A stretch of 48,598 nt of DNA from Lysobacterales bacterium (lineage in GTDB: Bacteria; Pseudomonadota; Gammaproteobacteria; Xanthomonadales; SZUA-36). The stretch is from NCBI GenBank assembly GCA_013002505.1, contig JABDJL010000055.1, positions 1-48,598 on the forward strand. The letters run 5' to 3'. A program made the position numbers and the translations under genes. Below are positions 2,443 through 10,088 of this stretch, in pieces. Below the pieces are notes generated by a model. That model made no database searches. It worked only from the letters and a program-made list of their open reading frames with translations, and was not told where the DNA came from. How positions within the stretch are numbered: position 1 is the stretch's first letter; every line of letters begins with the position of its first letter.

Positions 2443-2611
2443 TTCGACCCTGTTCGAACTAAATTTGGCAAAGCATAGCCTAGTTTCAGGCCGTGTTTCA
2501 GGTCCCGTCAATCGATGCTATGGTGATTCGGTTTCCAGATAACTCGTGGTGCTGGTGTGTTGACCAGCAACAATGTTTACTTCCAGGAGCAATAATTCAC
2601 CGGGCTCGCGC

Positions 2612-3040
2612 ATGTATTGGATACTCGCTCTGATATCAGGCTGCCTGCTGGCCGTCATGATCTTTCTTAATGGCGCCCTGGCGGCTGCCATCGGGCCGGT
2701 TGAGGGTTCACTGGTCGTGCACGGTGTCGGCCTGCTGGTGGCCTCGGCACTGGTGTTCCTGATCCGGGAGACTTCTGCCACCCCGGGCCTGAAAGCACCG
2801 TGGTGGGCCTACCTGGGTGGCGCTTTTGGCGCTGTGCTGGTGATCATTTCGGGAATTACCGTCAACAGTGAAATTGGCGTTGCCGGCACCATTTCCATGT
2901 TGTTGCTCGGGCAGGTTCTGGCCGGCATGCTGACCGACCAGTTCGGGTGGTTCGGGCTGCCACGGCGGCGCGTGACGCTACTGGATCTTGCACAGGTGGT
3001 ACTGGTGCTGGGCGGGAGCGGGTTACTGCTTTATGGTTGA
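2612..3040 (+). CDS. Half-size DMT transporter, YdcZ/DUF606 type, first partner
   Basis: A small integral membrane protein of about 142 residues with five predicted helices and the family signature PWWAYLGGAFGAVLV in the middle. Basic residues fall in the loop after helix 2 (RETSATPGLK) and the loop after helix 4 (GLPRRRVT), while the other loops lack them. The positive-inside rule therefore predicts N-terminus in, C-terminus out. An in-frame start at 2573 (14 codons earlier) is possible; neither has a clear ribosome site. The stop overlaps the next gene by 8 bases, which suggests translational coupling and complex formation. Substrate unknown. Confidence 0.78.
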   Translation: MYWILALISGCLLAVMIFLNGALAAAIGPVEGSLVVHGVGLLVASALVFLIRETSATPGLKAPWWAYLGGAFGAVLVIISGITVNSEIGVAGTISMLLLGQVLAGMLTDQFGWFGLPRRRVTLLDLAQVVLVLGGSGLLLYG

Positions 3041-3476
3041 GATGACCCTGTTCGCTCTGCTCGGCGGGTTCCTGCTGGCGCTGAACCGAATCCTGATTTC
3101 CAGGCTGGGCATGAGCATCGGTGCGTTCCGCAGCAGTTGGTGGAATCACGTAGTCGGCTTTGTGCTGCTGGTGCCGATCGTACTGCTGGTTTTGGCTCCA
3201 CGCACCACGGCCCTGTCTGACGCGCCGTGGTGGGCTTACATGGGCGGCGCCATCGGTGCGCTGTTCGTGGCGTTGAGCAGCATTGTCATTCCCAGGATTG
3301 GCGCGACCACCGCGCTGGCCCTGATGATTACCGGTCAGATGACAATCAGCACCCTGATTGACTTCCGGCTCGGCAAAATCGATTCCCCTGAAATTGCTTT
3401 GCTGGGGCTGGCGCTGATCATAGCTGGCGCGTTTATCCCCAAGGCAAGACGCGTGATTCAGGAAGACACGCGCTGA
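3033..3476 (+). CDS. Half-size DMT transporter, YdcZ/DUF606 type, second partner
   Basis: A 147-residue membrane protein homologous to the gene just upstream, sharing the APWWAY(L/M)GGA(F/I)GA signature and five predicted helices. Here the basic residues are in the loop after helix 1 (NRILISRLG, then GAFRSS), after helix 3 (VIPRIG) and in the C-tail (KARRVIQEDTR), the opposite pattern to the first partner. The predicted topology is N-out, C-in. The ATG at 3033 lies inside the last codons of the upstream gene (ATGGTTGA), so the two are almost certainly co-translated. By analogy with paired small multidrug-resistance proteins they may form an antiparallel heterodimer. The substrate is not deducible. 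Confidence 0.78.
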   Translation: MVEMTLFALLGGFLLALNRILISRLGMSIGAFRSSWWNHVVGFVLLVPIVLLVLAPRTTALSDAPWWAYMGGAIGALFVALSSIVIPRIGATTALALMITGQMTISTLIDFRLGKIDSPEIALLGLALIIAGAFIPKARRVIQEDTR

Positions 3477-3488
3477 ATTCCAGTCAAC

Positions 3489-4949
3489 TCAATCGCGACG
3501 GTCTGAGATTACCGCCCGCGCTTCAATTTCCACCAGGTATTCATCGCCGACCAGCCGCGCCTCCACCAGCGTGTTGGCCGGTTTGATGTGGCCGAACCGC
3601 TCGCCGTGAGCCCGCGCGACACGCTCCCAGTCGTTCATGTTCTTGATGAACACGCGTGTACGCACGACATCCTCAAGGCTACCACCCAGCGACTCGATGG
3701 CGCCGAGGATCTTGTCGATGACGAAATGGGTCTGCGCCGCAGGGTCGATACCACCAATGATGCGGCTGCCCTGGGTAGCAGTCGTGCCAGACACCTCGAT
3801 CGTGTTGCCGTGGCGGATCGCACGGCAATAACCGGCGAAATCTTCCCACGAGGTGCCGCTGAACACGCGCTGTGTGCCGTTGTCATCCTTTTCGGGTACG
3901 AACGCCGGGGGAATCGAATCGTAGTGATCGCTCAGGTCGCCTGCGGCGGTCAGGAACGGCGGTTTTCGGTATTCGTCACCGCAGCCACCCGGAATCGGCT
4001 CCAGGCTGCTGATCGCTTCCTGCAACTCCCGGCGGTCGCGGTCTTCGAGTTTCAGCTTGAAAATCGCCCGGTTTTCATTGATGTGATCATTTTGGCCAAG
4101 CCTGGCGCCTAGGATGACGCCGCACACGGCCGGTTGATCGAGCACGTGGCGGCTGGCCACCGCGGCGATTGTGACATCGTGCCTTGCGGCAACCGATGCA
4201 ACCACCCTCAGCAGGCTCTGGAACCGGTCCCAGCCGCCCGCCGCGTCAATGAAACGCTTGTATTTCATTTGTGACCACGTGGACAGCTCGGTGGGCTCGG
4301 GCTGGCCGAGCCATTGCTCGCTAAGAAACCCGCCGGCCAGTGTGCCGTAGGCAAGCAGGCGCACGCGGTACTTTTTACACACCTCGGTCATGGCGCCTGC
4401 TGCGCGTTGGTCGAGCAAAGAGAAACTGACCTGGTTGGTGATGATCGGAATACCGCTGGCCACCGCCACGCGTACATGCGCAGCGTCAAAATTGGTCACG
4501 CCGAGGTGGGCGATCAGGCCTTCGTCACGAAGGTCGCGCAACCAGAACAGGCTGTCCAGCCAGTTAGGGTCCGCGTAATTCCAGGCGTGATACTGCAGCA
4601 AGTCGAGGCGCTCGGTTTCGAGCCGCTGCAATGCGCGCTCAACGCCTTCGCGAACCTCTTCGCGGGTCACCGGCCCTGGCTTGGGTACCCACTTGGTCAA
4701 CATCTGGGCGTGGCGGCCGGCCGCTTCCGCATTTTTAAAATGGCCGGCAATGACTTCTGCGGAACCATAATGATCCGCCATGTCGAAAGTGGTAAACCCC
4801 GCCTCGACATAAGGAATCATGTGCTTGGCGGCAGCGATCGGATCAAGCGTATTTCCGTCTTTCTCAAGATCAGCGACCTGCCACATACCCGTGAGTACCC
4901 TGGAAATCCTGAATCCGGGCGCCAGTTCTGAATATTCGATCTTCGACAT
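3489..4949 (-). CDS. Aldo/keto reductase fused to a RidA-like domain
   Basis: A 486-residue fusion. Residues about 1-335 form an aldo/keto reductase barrel with the full catalytic tetrad visible: D56 and Y61 (FDMADHYG), K86 (LTKW), H121 (QYHAW). Residues about 356-486 form a YjgF/YER057c/UK114 (RidA) domain (EVSGTTATQG, then VVRTRVFIKN, then VEIEA). Aligned to E. coli RidA without gaps, Arg105, which holds the substrate carboxylate, becomes N459, while Glu120 is kept as E476. This fits the Rid branches without imine deaminase activity. The frame stays open upstream into the permease gene, but the ATG at 4949 has GGAG 7 bases before it and begins the reductase fold. It lies 2 bases after the permease stop, so the two genes form one unit. 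Confidence 0.88.
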   Translation of the reverse strand: MSKIEYSELAPGFRISRVLTGMWQVADLEKDGNTLDPIAAAKHMIPYVEAGFTTFDMADHYGSAEVIAGHFKNAEAAGRHAQMLTKWVPKPGPVTREEVREGVERALQRLETERLDLLQYHAWNYADPNWLDSLFWLRDLRDEGLIAHLGVTNFDAAHVRVAVASGIPIITNQVSFSLLDQRAAGAMTEVCKKYRVRLLAYGTLAGGFLSEQWLGQPEPTELSTWSQMKYKRFIDAAGGWDRFQSLLRVVASVAARHDVTIAAVASRHVLDQPAVCGVILGARLGQNDHINENRAIFKLKLEDRDRRELQEAISSLEPIPGGCGDEYRKPPFLTAAGDLSDHYDSIPPAFVPEKDDNGTQRVFSGTSWEDFAGYCRAIRHGNTIEVSGTTATQGSRIIGGIDPAAQTHFVIDKILGAIESLGGSLEDVVRTRVFIKNMNDWERVARAHGERFGHIKPANTLVEARLVGDEYLVEIEARAVISDRRD

Positions 4950-4951
4950 AG

Positions 4952-6442
4952 TTACTCCGGCAAGCTTTTGAACAGTTGTACGGTATCTACGCCCCTGCCC
5001 TTCAGCGACGCAAACTTGACCAGGAACACTACCGATCCCATCGCCATGACCAGCAGCCAGACCAGCGTCGAGTGGAAATACCAGGCCGACACATCGCTGC
5101 TCATGTCCTTCCACACATGGACGACCAGGAAACCGCATAACAGCAGTGCACCTGTCCAGCCCAGCAGTGCCTGTAAGCGCGTGCTTTTGAAAACGGCAAT
5201 GCGCCCGGCCATGTCCGGGTTGACCCGTCGTATGCAGACCAGCGTGACACACATCAGCAGAAAATTGACCATCATCGCGGTCACCATGATGTCGATACCG
5301 AGAAAGAAATCCCCGGCAAAATGGCTGCCCAGAACGCCTATGCTGGCGATGACACCGCTGGCGGCCAGCGCGAGGTGCGGTGTGTGAAAGCGCGGGTGAA
5401 CGCGGGCAATGCCGGCCGGGAAAATGCCATCCTCGGCCCACGCGAACATCAGACGGGACACCGCGAGCAACATGGCCGGCAGGTCGTTGATCAAGGCGAT
5501 AGCCGCGCCGGCCAGGATCGCCACTGACAGGCCGGCGGGCAGCAAGTAGGCCATCATGCCCGGCGCCGAGACGTCACGAGCCAGCGCCTCTTCGGCGACA
5601 AATGGCCACGGCACGGCATGGTAAACCGCCGATGCGAACAGGAAATAGAATCCACCGACCGTGACAATTGCCAGGCCAATGGCCAGCGGAAGATTGCGTG
5701 ACGGGTTGCGTGCCTCGCCGCCCGCCTGGGCGATCGAGTCGAAGCCAATAAAACTGGAAAACATGATCGCCGCGGCGGACAGGAACACCACCCAGTCAAA
5801 AGCGCCAGCCTCGGCCGTCGGTGGCGCCCTGCCCTCGGCAGCCTGTAATGCGGCAGCAAAATCCGCATGATCGAACAGGAACCCGGCCACGATAACAATC
5901 GAGCCTAACGCGAACATCAGGAACATCATCGGCAGCAGCGTGCGCTCGTAAGCCTTGACGCCGCGGATATTGATACCCACGAACAACCAGATCATGGCCA
6001 GCGCCAACGACACGCGCACCGCGCCGTTTTCAAGCCAGCCCGCCAGCATGACCCACTGCAGGCCAAGCGCGATATCACGCAAAAATGGCACGATCACGTA
6101 TGCAATCACACCGATGACGATGGACAGGCCAAACCACTGCGAGAAGCTGGCGATGAAGCCCAGGTAGGGACTGAGACCACGGCTGGCATAAATATAGCTG
6201 CCGCCGGCGCGCGGCATCGCGGAAGCCAGGATGCCATAGGCCATTGCGGCCGCCAGCGCCGGTAATGCGGCGAACAGGAAGGCTGGCAGCACGTATTCGC
6301 CGATGCCCGGCACGCTGCGCTGGATCATGAACGGCACCACATAAATCGACGCGCCGAACATCGCGCAGATGCCGGTCGCGGTCAGGCCAAGCAGGCCAAG
6401 CTGCCGGGAAAGATGGGGTTCAGGTTTGTGATCGTGTCCCAT
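4952..6442 (-). CDS. APC-superfamily amino acid/polyamine permease
   Basis: A 496-residue, about 12-helix transporter. The first helix carries the broken-helix substrate-site motif (TGICAMFGASIYVVP, compare GxxIGSGIF in the family), followed by PRAGGSYIYASRGLSP at the helix 2-3 boundary and FSSFIGFDSIAQAGGEARNP around helix 6, all typical of APC antiporters and symporters. It sits in the inner membrane and probably imports an amino acid or amine with protons. The start has no obvious Shine-Dalgarno sequence. The downstream AKR-RidA gene starts 2 bases after the stop, with its ribosome site inside this gene's end, so import and reductive or imine chemistry are probably linked. The exact substrate cannot be read from the sequence. 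Confidence 0.88.
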   Translation of the reverse strand: MGHDHKPEPHLSRQLGLLGLTATGICAMFGASIYVVPFMIQRSVPGIGEYVLPAFLFAALPALAAAMAYGILASAMPRAGGSYIYASRGLSPYLGFIASFSQWFGLSIVIGVIAYVIVPFLRDIALGLQWVMLAGWLENGAVRVSLALAMIWLFVGINIRGVKAYERTLLPMMFLMFALGSIVIVAGFLFDHADFAAALQAAEGRAPPTAEAGAFDWVVFLSAAAIMFSSFIGFDSIAQAGGEARNPSRNLPLAIGLAIVTVGGFYFLFASAVYHAVPWPFVAEEALARDVSAPGMMAYLLPAGLSVAILAGAAIALINDLPAMLLAVSRLMFAWAEDGIFPAGIARVHPRFHTPHLALAASGVIASIGVLGSHFAGDFFLGIDIMVTAMMVNFLLMCVTLVCIRRVNPDMAGRIAVFKSTRLQALLGWTGALLLCGFLVVHVWKDMSSDVSAWYFHSTLVWLLVMAMGSVVFLVKFASLKGRGVDTVQLFKSLPE

Positions 6443-6635
6443 GGAACATTGTCATTATATTTATCGTGGTTTGCGGGCCCAGGCCGGTCCACTTATGTGA
6501 CCAATATGCCTTCAACTTGCTACAGGTACAACACCGGCCGCTGAAACGCGAAAAGCCGCGATTGAATCGCGTGGCCCGAAAGGCACGAAGGGCACTGGAC
6601 CGGAACTGCCCCGGCCCAGTACTTCTTCAGGTGTT

Positions 6636-9600
6636 TCAGAACACCACGCTTACAAAATCCGAACAAACGCTGGTGCCACCGGTTTCACAAACCCGGTATT
6701 CGTAGGTCGCGCCGCCCTTGGCGCCAATATTGTCCGTGTAATTGCTGCCAGAAACACCTGATGCAACGGGGCTGCCGCCATCCCGGTAGATATCCACGTT
6801 GCCTGATGCACCACTCCAGTCCAGGTCCACGGTGTGGCGACCCTTGACCTTGTAGCCGTTGGCTGCAAGGCTGATCGGCGACCCGGCAACCGTGGTGGCC
6901 GACGCGGTGTTGCTCCAGGCTGATTCACCGTGACCATTGAAGGCGCGGATGCGGTAGAAATACTCGGTCAGCGGCGCAAGGCCGGTGTCGGTGTGGCTGG
7001 TTTCATCCTGGCCGGCATTGGCCGCGCTGCCCCAGGAGGCGCCATCCGTAGAGCGCTCTATCTCGAAGCCGCTTTCCTCGGGGTCTGGCGCGTTTGAATT
7101 GTCGTTCCAGCTCAGATCAATCCCGCCATCGGGGCGCGCTACAGCCTGCAGGTTAGATGGTGCTGCAGGCGGGTCGCCCGGCCCTGAAACGGTGCGGATG
7201 ATCAGCTGGTCAACCAATACCGTGTCGAGCGCACGGTTGCCCTGGCCCTGGTCGGTGTCGGTGACGCGGATATAGACATTGCCAGACAGGTTCGACGGCA
7301 GCAAAACGCTGGCGCTGTTGGCCGGATCCGTTGATGCAATCACGAAGGCCTCGGTCCAGTTGCTATTGTCGCTGGAATATTCAAACCTGAATTGGTCACC
7401 ATCGCTGGAACCGCTGCTCCAGGCGTTGGTCATCAGCGTGGCCGAATCGGCCGGCGTGATGTTGAACTGCCAGCGGTGCTCAAGGAAACTGTGGCGATTA
7501 TTCTTCTTGCCGCCGCTTTCGCGTTCGCGGATAGATTGCCAGATATCGTCGTCTTCGCCGGTGCTGGCAAAGGTGCCAGTGACCGTACCGGCGCCCGGGA
7601 TATCGGCGATCGCCTGATGGTCGGTCTCCACGGTCGGGTTGGACGGATTCACGATGATGCCAATCGATACTTGCGTGGTGTCACCGTCGTCATCCGTGGC
7701 ATCGGCGCGCAGCGTGTAGTTACCCGGAGCCATGCCGGCAAATACCGGATCCTGGGTCGGGTTCCACTGGTAAGGATCGACATTCTCCTGGCGCACGAAG
7801 TTGCCGTCCAGGTAGAGACGTACATTGCTGACCGAGCCGTCCGAATCCGAAGCCGAAACTTCAACGAACAGATCGACACCCTCGTCGAACTGCTGGCCAT
7901 CGGTCGGGGTCAGGAAACTGGCCGAGGTCGGGGAATTCGGTCCTTCAATGTTGATCGTGATGCTGCTGGTGGCAAAGCCGCCGTCATTGTCTTCGGCATA
8001 GGCATCCAGCACGTGCGGACCGACGGCAAGGTTCTGCAATTCCGGCTGGCTGCCATCCCAGGCATAAGGCGCGGTGCTGTCGCTGCTGACCAACACGGAG
8101 TCCACGTACAGTTCCACGAAGCTGACGCTGCCATCAGGATCTGATGCGCTCACTTCCACTGGAATGGTCGCGCCGGGCAGGAAACTCTGGCCATGGCTGG
8201 GCGTGACGAAATTGACTGTTGGCGACTGGTTGCCGGCCAACCGGAACAGGGCGACCCAGTCTTCGTCAACGCTTGATGGCGGGCTGCCCAACGCCACGCT
8301 GGGGCCGTTAACCTGGACCTGGCTGCCCTCGAACGCGCCGCTGCGCGGGTTGAACCAGTCAAAATCAAAGGTGCTGCCGGGCAGCGTCAAGGTGCCGCTG
8401 GGGTTGCCGTCCGGCAGGTATACGGCGTACACCTCGCCGGGCTTGTAGAACACCTGGCCGCCGCCAAGAGCGCCGTCCTCGCCACTGAGCAATGAATCGC
8501 CCGGCTGCATGTCCCAAAACGGCAGGTTATCGTGCATGAACTGCCGCGCCGTGGCCATGTAGCCGTACATTGCAGAGCGGGTCGTGAAATCTTCGGTGCG
8601 CATGTCACCACCCAGCGGCAGCGCGTGGTAGCCGAAATACCACTCGATGTTGCCGCCCGAGAAATACACGTCATACAAGACCCGCTTGCGCAGGTCGGTG
8701 GCGTTGGTGTCGGTCAGGCCGGTTCCAGCGGGTGAATTCTCATCCATGTCAATCACCAATGGGCGACCGGATGCATCGGTATCGGTAATCAGGGATTCGA
8801 CAAAACTATTGGCATTATCGGGCGCGTACTGCACGGCCGTGGTATCGAAGCGTGCATCACCCAGGTGGGGTGCGTACTGACTGATGTTGTTGTGATGGGT
8901 ATGGAATGTCAGCTGGTGACCAGCCCAGTCGAGCGCCGAGATGTAATCGGCAAATGCCCGCACTTCAGCGTCTGAAAAGTCATTTTCTTCGCTGAGGTTC
9001 CACTTCACCGCCAACAGGTAAGCAAAGCGTGCGATTAGCTCGCGATAGTACAGCTTGCGCTGGGTGCCCAGTGTGCCGCTATCGAGCCAGTTTTCATTTC
9101 CGGACTCCGTTTCCGCCAGCACAAAATGCAGCGCGATGCCCTGCTCCTGCGCATGGTTGAGCACCTGGTTCCACTGGTGCAGCTTGGAGATGTCGTAGTG
9201 GGTATTGGCATCCGCCGTGCCGGCCGGCGATATGAACGGGTAGGTTTCCCGGCCGTCGCCACCGAGGTTCATGGGCAGAAAGTAGATCGAGTTAACCTGT
9301 TGACTTGACAGGTAATTAAGGGCGCCAATGATGCCTTTGCTGTCGTAGCCCGTGTCTGCACTGGTGAACAAGGGGTCGCCTGGGTTCCAGTCCGCCACGT
9401 GCCCGGGATAACGATGTACGCCGTTTTCCAGGCCAGTCGTGGAGGCCCCGTTGGGTTGGTCCACGGTGTTGTCAAAACCCTTGTAACCGAGGAAATTCTC
9501 CGGGCTGTCCACGCCGCCTTTCAGCCAGTAATCGCCATCACGAAACTTGAGGTGATGCTTGCCGACATATTCAAGCCGGCCCCATTTCAGGAATCCTGGC

Positions 9601-10055
9601 GCAGCCGGGTCAGGGGCCGTAATCGTAAAGTTGCCATTTTCCCCGTCAAAGCCTGTCGGCGTGCCCGCAGATGGGGAAAGGTCAATCGCGATATTGCTAG
9701 CGCTGCGAAAAGATGCCGAGTAGCTCCAGGATCCGGCCTCATCCGGCGCGAACCTGACCCGCCACGTGTCGCCGCTTCCACCGCCATTGCCGTCGCCATC
9801 GAAGAAGCCGGGTACAACATATTGTTGCGCACCGGGTCCTGTAAACGTGACCTGCAGCCTGTAGTCGAGGAAGGGATTGGGTGAACCGTCCGACTCATCA
9901 GCGGTCGGCCCATTGAAGCTGATGGTAAGCGGGTGCCATTTGATCAGGCTACCGTCAACCGTCGCCGCAAACGCTGCAGATGAATAAACCAGCCCCGCCG
10001 CCAGAAAAGATAACCATTTGTATTTATTAAGTATATTTCCTGGCTTCCGTGTCAT
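6636..10055 (-). CDS. Secreted multidomain glycoside-hydrolase-like protein (DUF5060 type)
   Basis: About 1139 residues. Order: Sec signal peptide (cut after AFA, residue 30); an N-terminal beta domain of DUF5060 type (about 35-120, WHPLTISF, DTWRVRFAPDE); a TIM-barrel-like region (about 150-530) with candidate acids in VLAETESGNENW and VIDMDENSPAG; a beta domain like the putative collagen-binding domain that ends such hydrolases (about 535-620, YAVYLPDG, WFNPRSG); two bacterial Ig-like repeats (about 625-810, VEVSASDxDGSV in each); a beta-sandwich region (about 815-960); and two fibronectin III-like domains to the end. The substrate is probably an extracellular glycan. An in-frame TTG exists at 10067, but the ATG at 10055 has GGAG 7 bases before it. 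It has its own promoter. Confidence 0.82.
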   Translation of the reverse strand: MTRKPGNILNKYKWLSFLAAGLVYSSAAFAATVDGSLIKWHPLTISFNGPTADESDGSPNPFLDYRLQVTFTGPGAQQYVVPGFFDGDGNGGGSGDTWRVRFAPDEAGSWSYSASFRSASNIAIDLSPSAGTPTGFDGENGNFTITAPDPAAPGFLKWGRLEYVGKHHLKFRDGDYWLKGGVDSPENFLGYKGFDNTVDQPNGASTTGLENGVHRYPGHVADWNPGDPLFTSADTGYDSKGIIGALNYLSSQQVNSIYFLPMNLGGDGRETYPFISPAGTADANTHYDISKLHQWNQVLNHAQEQGIALHFVLAETESGNENWLDSGTLGTQRKLYYRELIARFAYLLAVKWNLSEENDFSDAEVRAFADYISALDWAGHQLTFHTHHNNISQYAPHLGDARFDTTAVQYAPDNANSFVESLITDTDASGRPLVIDMDENSPAGTGLTDTNATDLRKRVLYDVYFSGGNIEWYFGYHALPLGGDMRTEDFTTRSAMYGYMATARQFMHDNLPFWDMQPGDSLLSGEDGALGGGQVFYKPGEVYAVYLPDGNPSGTLTLPGSTFDFDWFNPRSGAFEGSQVQVNGPSVALGSPPSSVDEDWVALFRLAGNQSPTVNFVTPSHGQSFLPGATIPVEVSASDPDGSVSFVELYVDSVLVSSDSTAPYAWDGSQPELQNLAVGPHVLDAYAEDNDGGFATSSITINIEGPNSPTSASFLTPTDGQQFDEGVDLFVEVSASDSDGSVSNVRLYLDGNFVRQENVDPYQWNPTQDPVFAGMAPGNYTLRADATDDDGDTTQVSIGIIVNPSNPTVETDHQAIADIPGAGTVTGTFASTGEDDDIWQSIRERESGGKKNNRHSFLEHRWQFNITPADSATLMTNAWSSGSSDGDQFRFEYSSDNSNWTEAFVIASTDPANSASVLLPSNLSGNVYIRVTDTDQGQGNRALDTVLVDQLIIRTVSGPGDPPAAPSNLQAVARPDGGIDLSWNDNSNAPDPEESGFEIERSTDGASWGSAANAGQDETSHTDTGLAPLTEYFYRIRAFNGHGESAWSNTASATTVAGSPISLAANGYKVKGRHTVDLDWSGASGNVDIYRDGGSPVASGVSGSNYTDNIGAKGGATYEYRVCETGGTSVCSDFVSVVF

Positions 10056-10088
10056 GATTGGCTCCAAAAATCCATTTCCTTGGCTCTG

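Follow-up and report, generated by a model that had tools for sequence, protein, structure and literature searches.

In RidA, arginine 105 is essential, and the residue is a predictor of deaminase activity (PMC4433059, PMC5619798). The Rid4-7 subfamilies, from which it is missing, have no known role, and their function has been termed mysterious; Rid proteins are typically trimers (PMC4433059). Here we describe a Rid-family domain without this arginine that is fused to an aldo/keto reductase (AKR) and encoded beside an amino-acid-type permease. The gene pair lies in a 48,598-nucleotide stretch of DNA from a Lysobacterales bacterium, which was analyzed as a whole and is called the window below. 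The individual domains and the permease superfamily are already known; no matching curated family or paper was found for the fusion, for the linker or for the operons conserved around it, and a literature search that covered articles apart from their supplements returned no description of the fusion.

Results

The gene pair at the locus

The features of the locus are collected in Table 1. The TAA of the permease and the ATG of the fusion lie exactly 2 nt apart, the junction reading GGAG TAA CT ATG, in agreement with the initial annotation, which had placed the permease stop 2 bases ahead of the start of a 486-residue protein. Judging from the sequence, the GGAG is a plausible Shine-Dalgarno element, or ribosome-binding site, for the fusion. 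An alternative GTG start in the fusion frame (reaching 5441) would overlap the permease and is not a conserved start. No sigma-70-like promoter was detected in a scan of window positions 3380 to 6700. Neither gene could be given a curated identity, both scoring far below every NCBIfam equivalog cut-off.

Table 1. Features of the permease-fusion locus (positions in the window)
Feature	Position	Strand	Basis
APC-superfamily (CAT/ApcT-like) amino-acid-type permease, 496 aa	4952..6442	(-)	Pfam AA_permease_2, E 2e-34
AKR-Rid fusion protein, 486 aa	3489..4949	(-)	ORF; at least 80 full-length relatives; AF2 model
Permease stop TAA (4954-4952), overlapped upstream by GGAG (4958-4955): GGAGTAACTATG	4952..4958	(-)	Sequence
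Aldo/keto reductase domain, residues 19-312, tetrad D56 Y61 K86 H121	4014..4895	(-)	Pfam PF00248 Aldo_ket_red, E 1.5e-50
Invariant inter-domain linker, residues 321-342 (GGCGDEYRKPPFLTAAGDLSDH region)	3924..3989	(-)	Conservation across fusions
Rid-family (Ribonuc_L-PSP) domain, residues 372-481, Asn459 at Arg105 site, Glu474 at Glu120 site	3507..3836	(-)	Pfam PF01042, E 5e-22

Two overlapping tandem DMT_YdcZ genes (2573-3476, plus strand), possibly a two-subunit small exporter, converge with the fusion and end 12 nt from its stop codon; the pair was not conserved beside other fusions. Upstream of the permease (6636-10067, minus strand) lies the gene for a secreted-looking protein of 1143 aa with DUF5060, two Big_7 domains and one fn3, which probably acts on glycans outside the cell and has no part in the permease-fusion module. 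The cysteine-synthase-like PALP gene, the YdcZ pair and the GT2 gene of the window were considered as module partners and set aside, since no homologue of any of them was found near other fusions.

The AKR domain and the inter-domain linker

The Aldo_ket_red domain, the barrel fold and the Asp-Tyr-Lys-His tetrad, invariant in 82/82 and 55/55 aligned fusions, place the first half of the protein in the AKR superfamily, and its predicted activity is NAD(P)H-dependent carbonyl reduction. R283, present in 53 of 55 fusions, belongs to the GARLG stretch, where many AKRs bind NADP. An AF2 model of the monomer, built with 45 homologues and leaving plasmid sequences out of the set, reached a pLDDT of 89.9 and a pTM of 0.90. 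The AKR half matched solved AKRs (4xk2, DepB, Tas and Kv-beta) with Z scores of about 27 to 31, in a structural match list that consisted of AKRs only and did not cover the Rid half.

Among the closest fold matches to residues 1 to 313 (window 4011-4949) was Chlamydomonas radial spoke protein 5 (7jrj_H and 7jtk_I; Z about 31 over 307 residues, 2.5 A, 27% identity), which is nearer in sequence to the fusion than most structurally solved bacterial AKRs.

The linker follows the pattern G.CGDEYR.PPFLTA.GDLS.H and is one of the best-conserved segments of the protein, with C323, D325, E326, R328, P330, D338 and H342 invariant in 55/55 fusions, and the CGDEYR linker is missing from AKR-only paralogues. 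Residues 333 to 340 have a pLDDT below 50 in the monomer model, from which we infer that the linker may gain order in an oligomer or with a cofactor or substrate.

The Rid domain

The initial annotation had read the protein as a complete AKR joined to a RidA-like domain. The full tetrad and the Rid-family assignment were borne out, but the likeness to RidA breaks down at the catalytic arginine. In a gap-free stretch of the alignment to 2dyy, the Arg105 position is occupied by N459, whereas the Glu120 position is kept as E474, and both residues are invariant in 55/55 fusions; the best sequence match of the Rid half was 3i7t. The Arg105 equivalent that marks RidA-type proteins (RidA and Rid1-3) is thus absent, and the combination found, a Glu120 equivalent with no Arg105 equivalent, is that of the Arg-lacking Rid4-7 proteins. 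Because of the invariant Asn459, the domain resembles the uncharacterized Rid4-7 class; Rid6 (YjgF_YER057c_UK114_like_6) may be the member that it resembles. For the same reason, the action on imines or binding of carboxylates ascribed to RidA domains, on which the initial annotation had drawn, is not simply transferable to this protein.

Distribution of the fusion

When one genome per species was scanned, some relative was encoded in 581 candidate stretches, and at least 80 full-length fusions, 58 to 71% identical over nearly the whole length, were recovered from at least seven phyla. By record title these were Pseudomonadota, Bacteroidota, Chloroflexota, Calditrichia, KSB1 and Neomarinimicrobiota, together with a Brocadia bin and a Gemmatimonadota bin. 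The fusion occupies a single open frame in at least 80 other assembled loci, so that a frame artefact is ruled out. Separate AKR-only and Rid-only homologues do exist, mostly at 34 to 42% identity; the case envisaged against the initial annotation, in which the two halves would be separate everywhere, does not hold.

Occurrence is patchy: 3/39 genomes of the window's own family, 7/398 of Pseudomonadota, 5/296 of Bacteroidota and 1/201 of Chloroflexota (the centre genome itself). In a quick tree, the sequences from Chloroflexota, KSB1, Brocadia and Neomarinimicrobiota grouped with one proteobacterial bin inside a mostly bacteroidotal part, which, as far as the sequences go, suggests horizontal transfer of the fusion but is no proof of it, because bins may contain foreign contigs. 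The permease-fusion module has probably spread horizontally; the viral contigs gave no match to the patterns used to look for the fusion there.

Linkage of permease and fusion

The permease has the PF13520 profile and the APC fold and thus belongs to the APC superfamily. Its AF2 model matched ApcT with a Z score of 39.7 (414 residues, 2.7 A rmsd), and CAT1, AdiC and LAT1 were matched as well; transport of an amino acid or amine is predicted from sequence and model.

Linkage was studied in 83 loci, namely, the window, two from relatives and 80 from the scan, of which L006 and L028 are one contig. The permease subfamily was present in 78/83, its full-length copies being 60 to 76% identical, and lay directly upstream of the fusion on the same strand in 74/83, with a spacing between -20 and +20 nt in 65/83. 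The initial annotation could have been refuted by the lack of a conserved permease neighbourhood, and these counts speak for the opposite; its proposal to search for AKR-Rid fusions with a neighbouring permease thus led to widespread fusions whose permease neighbourhood is strongly conserved. Among 296 sampled Bacteroidota genomes, fusion and permease occurred in the identical five, were adjacent in 5/5, and the permease subfamily was seen only beside the fusion; if the two were independent, matching sets of four genomes, not counting the chosen centre genome, would arise with a probability of about 3e-9. Fusion and permease distances were correlated (Mantel r of 0.71), a value not taken as evidence of coevolution, because shared ancestry alone can yield it.

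Upstream sequence of about 6 kb was available for three Chloroflexota loci (L050, L052 and L085) and contained no permease, while L053 and L087 stop too soon for this check. The permease subfamily was absent altogether from the genomes of L050, L052, L085 and L087. Four Chloroflexota loci (L050, L052, L053 and L085) had no adjacent same-strand importer of either the APC or the ABC kind described below. At L050 (1-12480), the fusion adjoins hydantoinase A/B (oxoprolinase) genes on the opposite strand, which also encodes proteins that, from their sequences, resemble amidohydrolases and a dipeptide ABC system.

A gene for a DUF885-superfamily protein precedes the permease in 13 loci from two phyla, mostly with a gap of about 25 nt (L034 2771-4468, L027 2795-4468, L026 2852-4516 and 10 other loci). 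Its copies are 23% identical between phyla, and the HExxPGH motif is found in L027 but is absent from the Bacteroidota copies; in L027, an S9 peptidase also precedes the permease. In those lineages, but not beyond them, the DUF885-superfamily protein may point to a substrate derived from peptides. Other Bacteroidota neighbours (an S10-like peptidase, a BNR-repeat protein and a PurU-like protein) were confined to related genera or lay on the opposite strand, and were taken as lineage synteny.

An alternative arrangement with a LIV-type ABC importer

Alphaproteobacterial plasmids yielded 17 records that span 80% or more of the fusion with 52 to 55% identity. A plasmid search with the permease gave no match. 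In the usual cluster, one arm encodes a LIV-type substrate-binding protein, an AKR of about 350 aa, a TIGR04076 protein and a GntR regulator, while the divergent arm encodes two ABC ATPases and two LIV permeases, with the fusion last. This cluster was found in Acuticoccus, Paroceanicella, Thioclava, R. rhizoryzae, Phyllobacterium, Alloyangia, Rhizobium BG4, Neorhizobium and Rhizobium SL42, and in rearranged form in Pannonibacter and Microvirga; the genes flanking the block vary by strain, and both of the regulators profiled were of the GntR/FCD type. In Antarctobacter, the fusion lies between polar-amino-acid and Pot-type ABC systems. Outside the alphaproteobacteria, Neomarinimicrobiota L087 combines the fusion with a LIV/AKR-only set in which TIGR04076 adjoins that AKR.

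TIGR04076 occurred in 4/4 fusion-bearing genomes without the APC permease versus 2/11 with it, so the AKR-only/TIGR04076 pair was rejected as an obligate partner of the fusion. Most APC-type genomes lack the second AKR and TIGR04076, so the two arrangements may use different pathways.

The AKR-only and TIGR04076 pair

This pair was also found without a neighbouring fusion. Contig C51 of the window's own genome and the Bacteroidota genome G589 carry it with an SNF-family Na+ symporter and a DAO-type FAD oxidase, the two symporters being 49% identical. In L130 (4954-9310; about 29953-34309 of C51), an operon-like run encodes an AKR with 37% identity to the fusion, TIGR04076, DUF3291, an SNF symporter and an N-methyltryptophan-oxidase-like FAD oxidase, and the TIGR04076-AKR-SNF-FAD oxidase set recurs in Bacteroidota L169. 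A haloarchaeal plasmid (L139 6584-8026) extends the range of the pair to Archaea, with TIGR04076 and an AKR-only gene near glycine dehydrogenase subunits, a gamma-glutamyltransferase and a dipeptide ABC system. All these contexts are amine or amino acid related.

Discussion

We assign a probability of about 0.55 to the reading that permease and fusion form a self-contained module that imports and converts an amino-acid-like compound and tends to stay together. The adjacency of the two genes is shared across several phyla, and they are therefore probably one small system; where the APC permease has been replaced, the replacement is a LIV-type ABC importer, which again points to an imported amino-acid-like compound. 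Thus, of the scheme put forward in the initial annotation, the module for such a compound gains from the conserved permease and from its LIV-type replacement, whereas the RidA-type imine mechanism finds no support in a domain with Asn459 at this site.

In the mechanism that we propose, the permease, or the ABC system, would import an amino-acid-like compound that bears, or quickly forms, a carbonyl or imine, which the AKR domain would reduce with NADPH, unless it works in the opposite direction as an oxidase of the compound. Without the deaminase arginine, the Rid domain would not be a general 2-aminoacrylate deaminase. It would more likely trimerize the enzyme, homotrimers with an inter-subunit pocket being characteristic of the Rid family, and bind or position the compound handled by the AKR, while the invariant linker would form part of the substrate site. 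Such a module may serve catabolism, detoxification or repair. More tentatively, the Arg105-lacking Rid domain and the AKR may together act as one bifunctional enzyme dedicated to a single imported compound of amino-acid-like type, and so make up an undescribed bacterial pathway unit.

Four other readings were weighed. The Rid domain could be a true imine deaminase whose pocket has changed, imine hydrolysis being coupled to carbonyl reduction, as the earlier idea of an intermediate passed between the domains had it. The Rid fold with its Glu120 equivalent would suit such an enzyme, and in two genomes the sister AKR-only gene lies beside FAD amine oxidases, which make imines; we nevertheless regard this as unlikely, given asparagine in 55/55 fusions at a site both essential and predictive in RidA (PMC4433059, PMC5619798).

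A specific version of the module reading, which we hold to be improbable, is scavenging or repair of damaged amino acids. Oxidized amino acids released from peptides, such as allysine and glutamate semialdehyde with their cyclic imines, would be imported, the Rid domain favouring imine opening and the AKR reducing the aldehyde. From what is known of the families, this chemistry suits an AKR with an imine-binding fold, and the 13 upstream DUF885-superfamily genes and the S9 peptidase of L027 fit a peptide source, but most loci have no DUF885-like gene, and HExxPGH is missing from the copies in Bacteroidota.

There is little probability that the Rid domain is purely structural, serving to trimerize an AKR that is otherwise an ordinary member of a catabolic operon. 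This would explain why the catalytic arginine was lost and would fit the trimeric state typical of Rid proteins (PMC4433059), while the invariant pocket-type residues W368, E369, R376, T390, R430, R432, H448, N459 and E474 exceed what a scaffold needs.

The least probable reading is that the protein attends the transporter in the cytosol, as a regulator or a redox-sensing subunit, much as Kv-beta AKR subunits serve potassium channels. The strict permease linkage and the presence of Kv-beta among the close AKR fold matches are offset by retention of the fusion with an unrelated LIV ABC importer, awkward for a permease-specific complex, and by Kv-beta being just one of many equally close AKRs. 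Persistence of the fusion through a change of transporter speaks for a metabolic connection with import rather than for a complex with a single permease.

If the bifunctional-enzyme reading is right, a Rid4-7-type domain would for the first time have a defined function, and the associated AKR/TIGR04076 clusters would gain a context. Through the fusion, the function of an Arg-less Rid domain becomes accessible to experiment: with its AKR partner and importer, it narrows the search for Rid4-7 function to one enzyme and one transporter. Culturable hosts include Maribacter, Algoriphagus, Cecembia, Rhizobium and Thioclava; the alphaproteobacterial clusters offer an ABC binding protein for ligand fishing, such as that of Thioclava at L133 1959-3215, and would place TIGR04076 in a functional context.

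Compared with known systems, the permease shares over residues 9 to 496 the LeuT-like APC fold and the Pfam AA_permease_2 assignment of ApcT, GkApcT, CAT1 and AdiC, but forms its own subfamily, below all NCBIfam equivalog cut-offs. The fusion has the TIM-barrel AKR and the full catalytic tetrad in common with E. coli Tas, DepB, AKR11 and Kv-beta, from which it differs in sequence (only 17 to 27% identity) and in having exchanged the C-terminal loop for the CGDEYR linker and Rid domain. The AKR-only and TIGR04076 pair likewise has a related AKR (about 35 to 42% identity to the fusion) and an adjacent amino-acid-type importer, but neither the Rid domain nor the CGDEYR linker. With the Arg-lacking Rid4-7 proteins, the fusion shares the Rid fold, the Glu120 equivalent and the absence of the catalytic arginine; while the reported proteins of this kind are small, here the Rid domain is joined through an invariant linker to an AKR.
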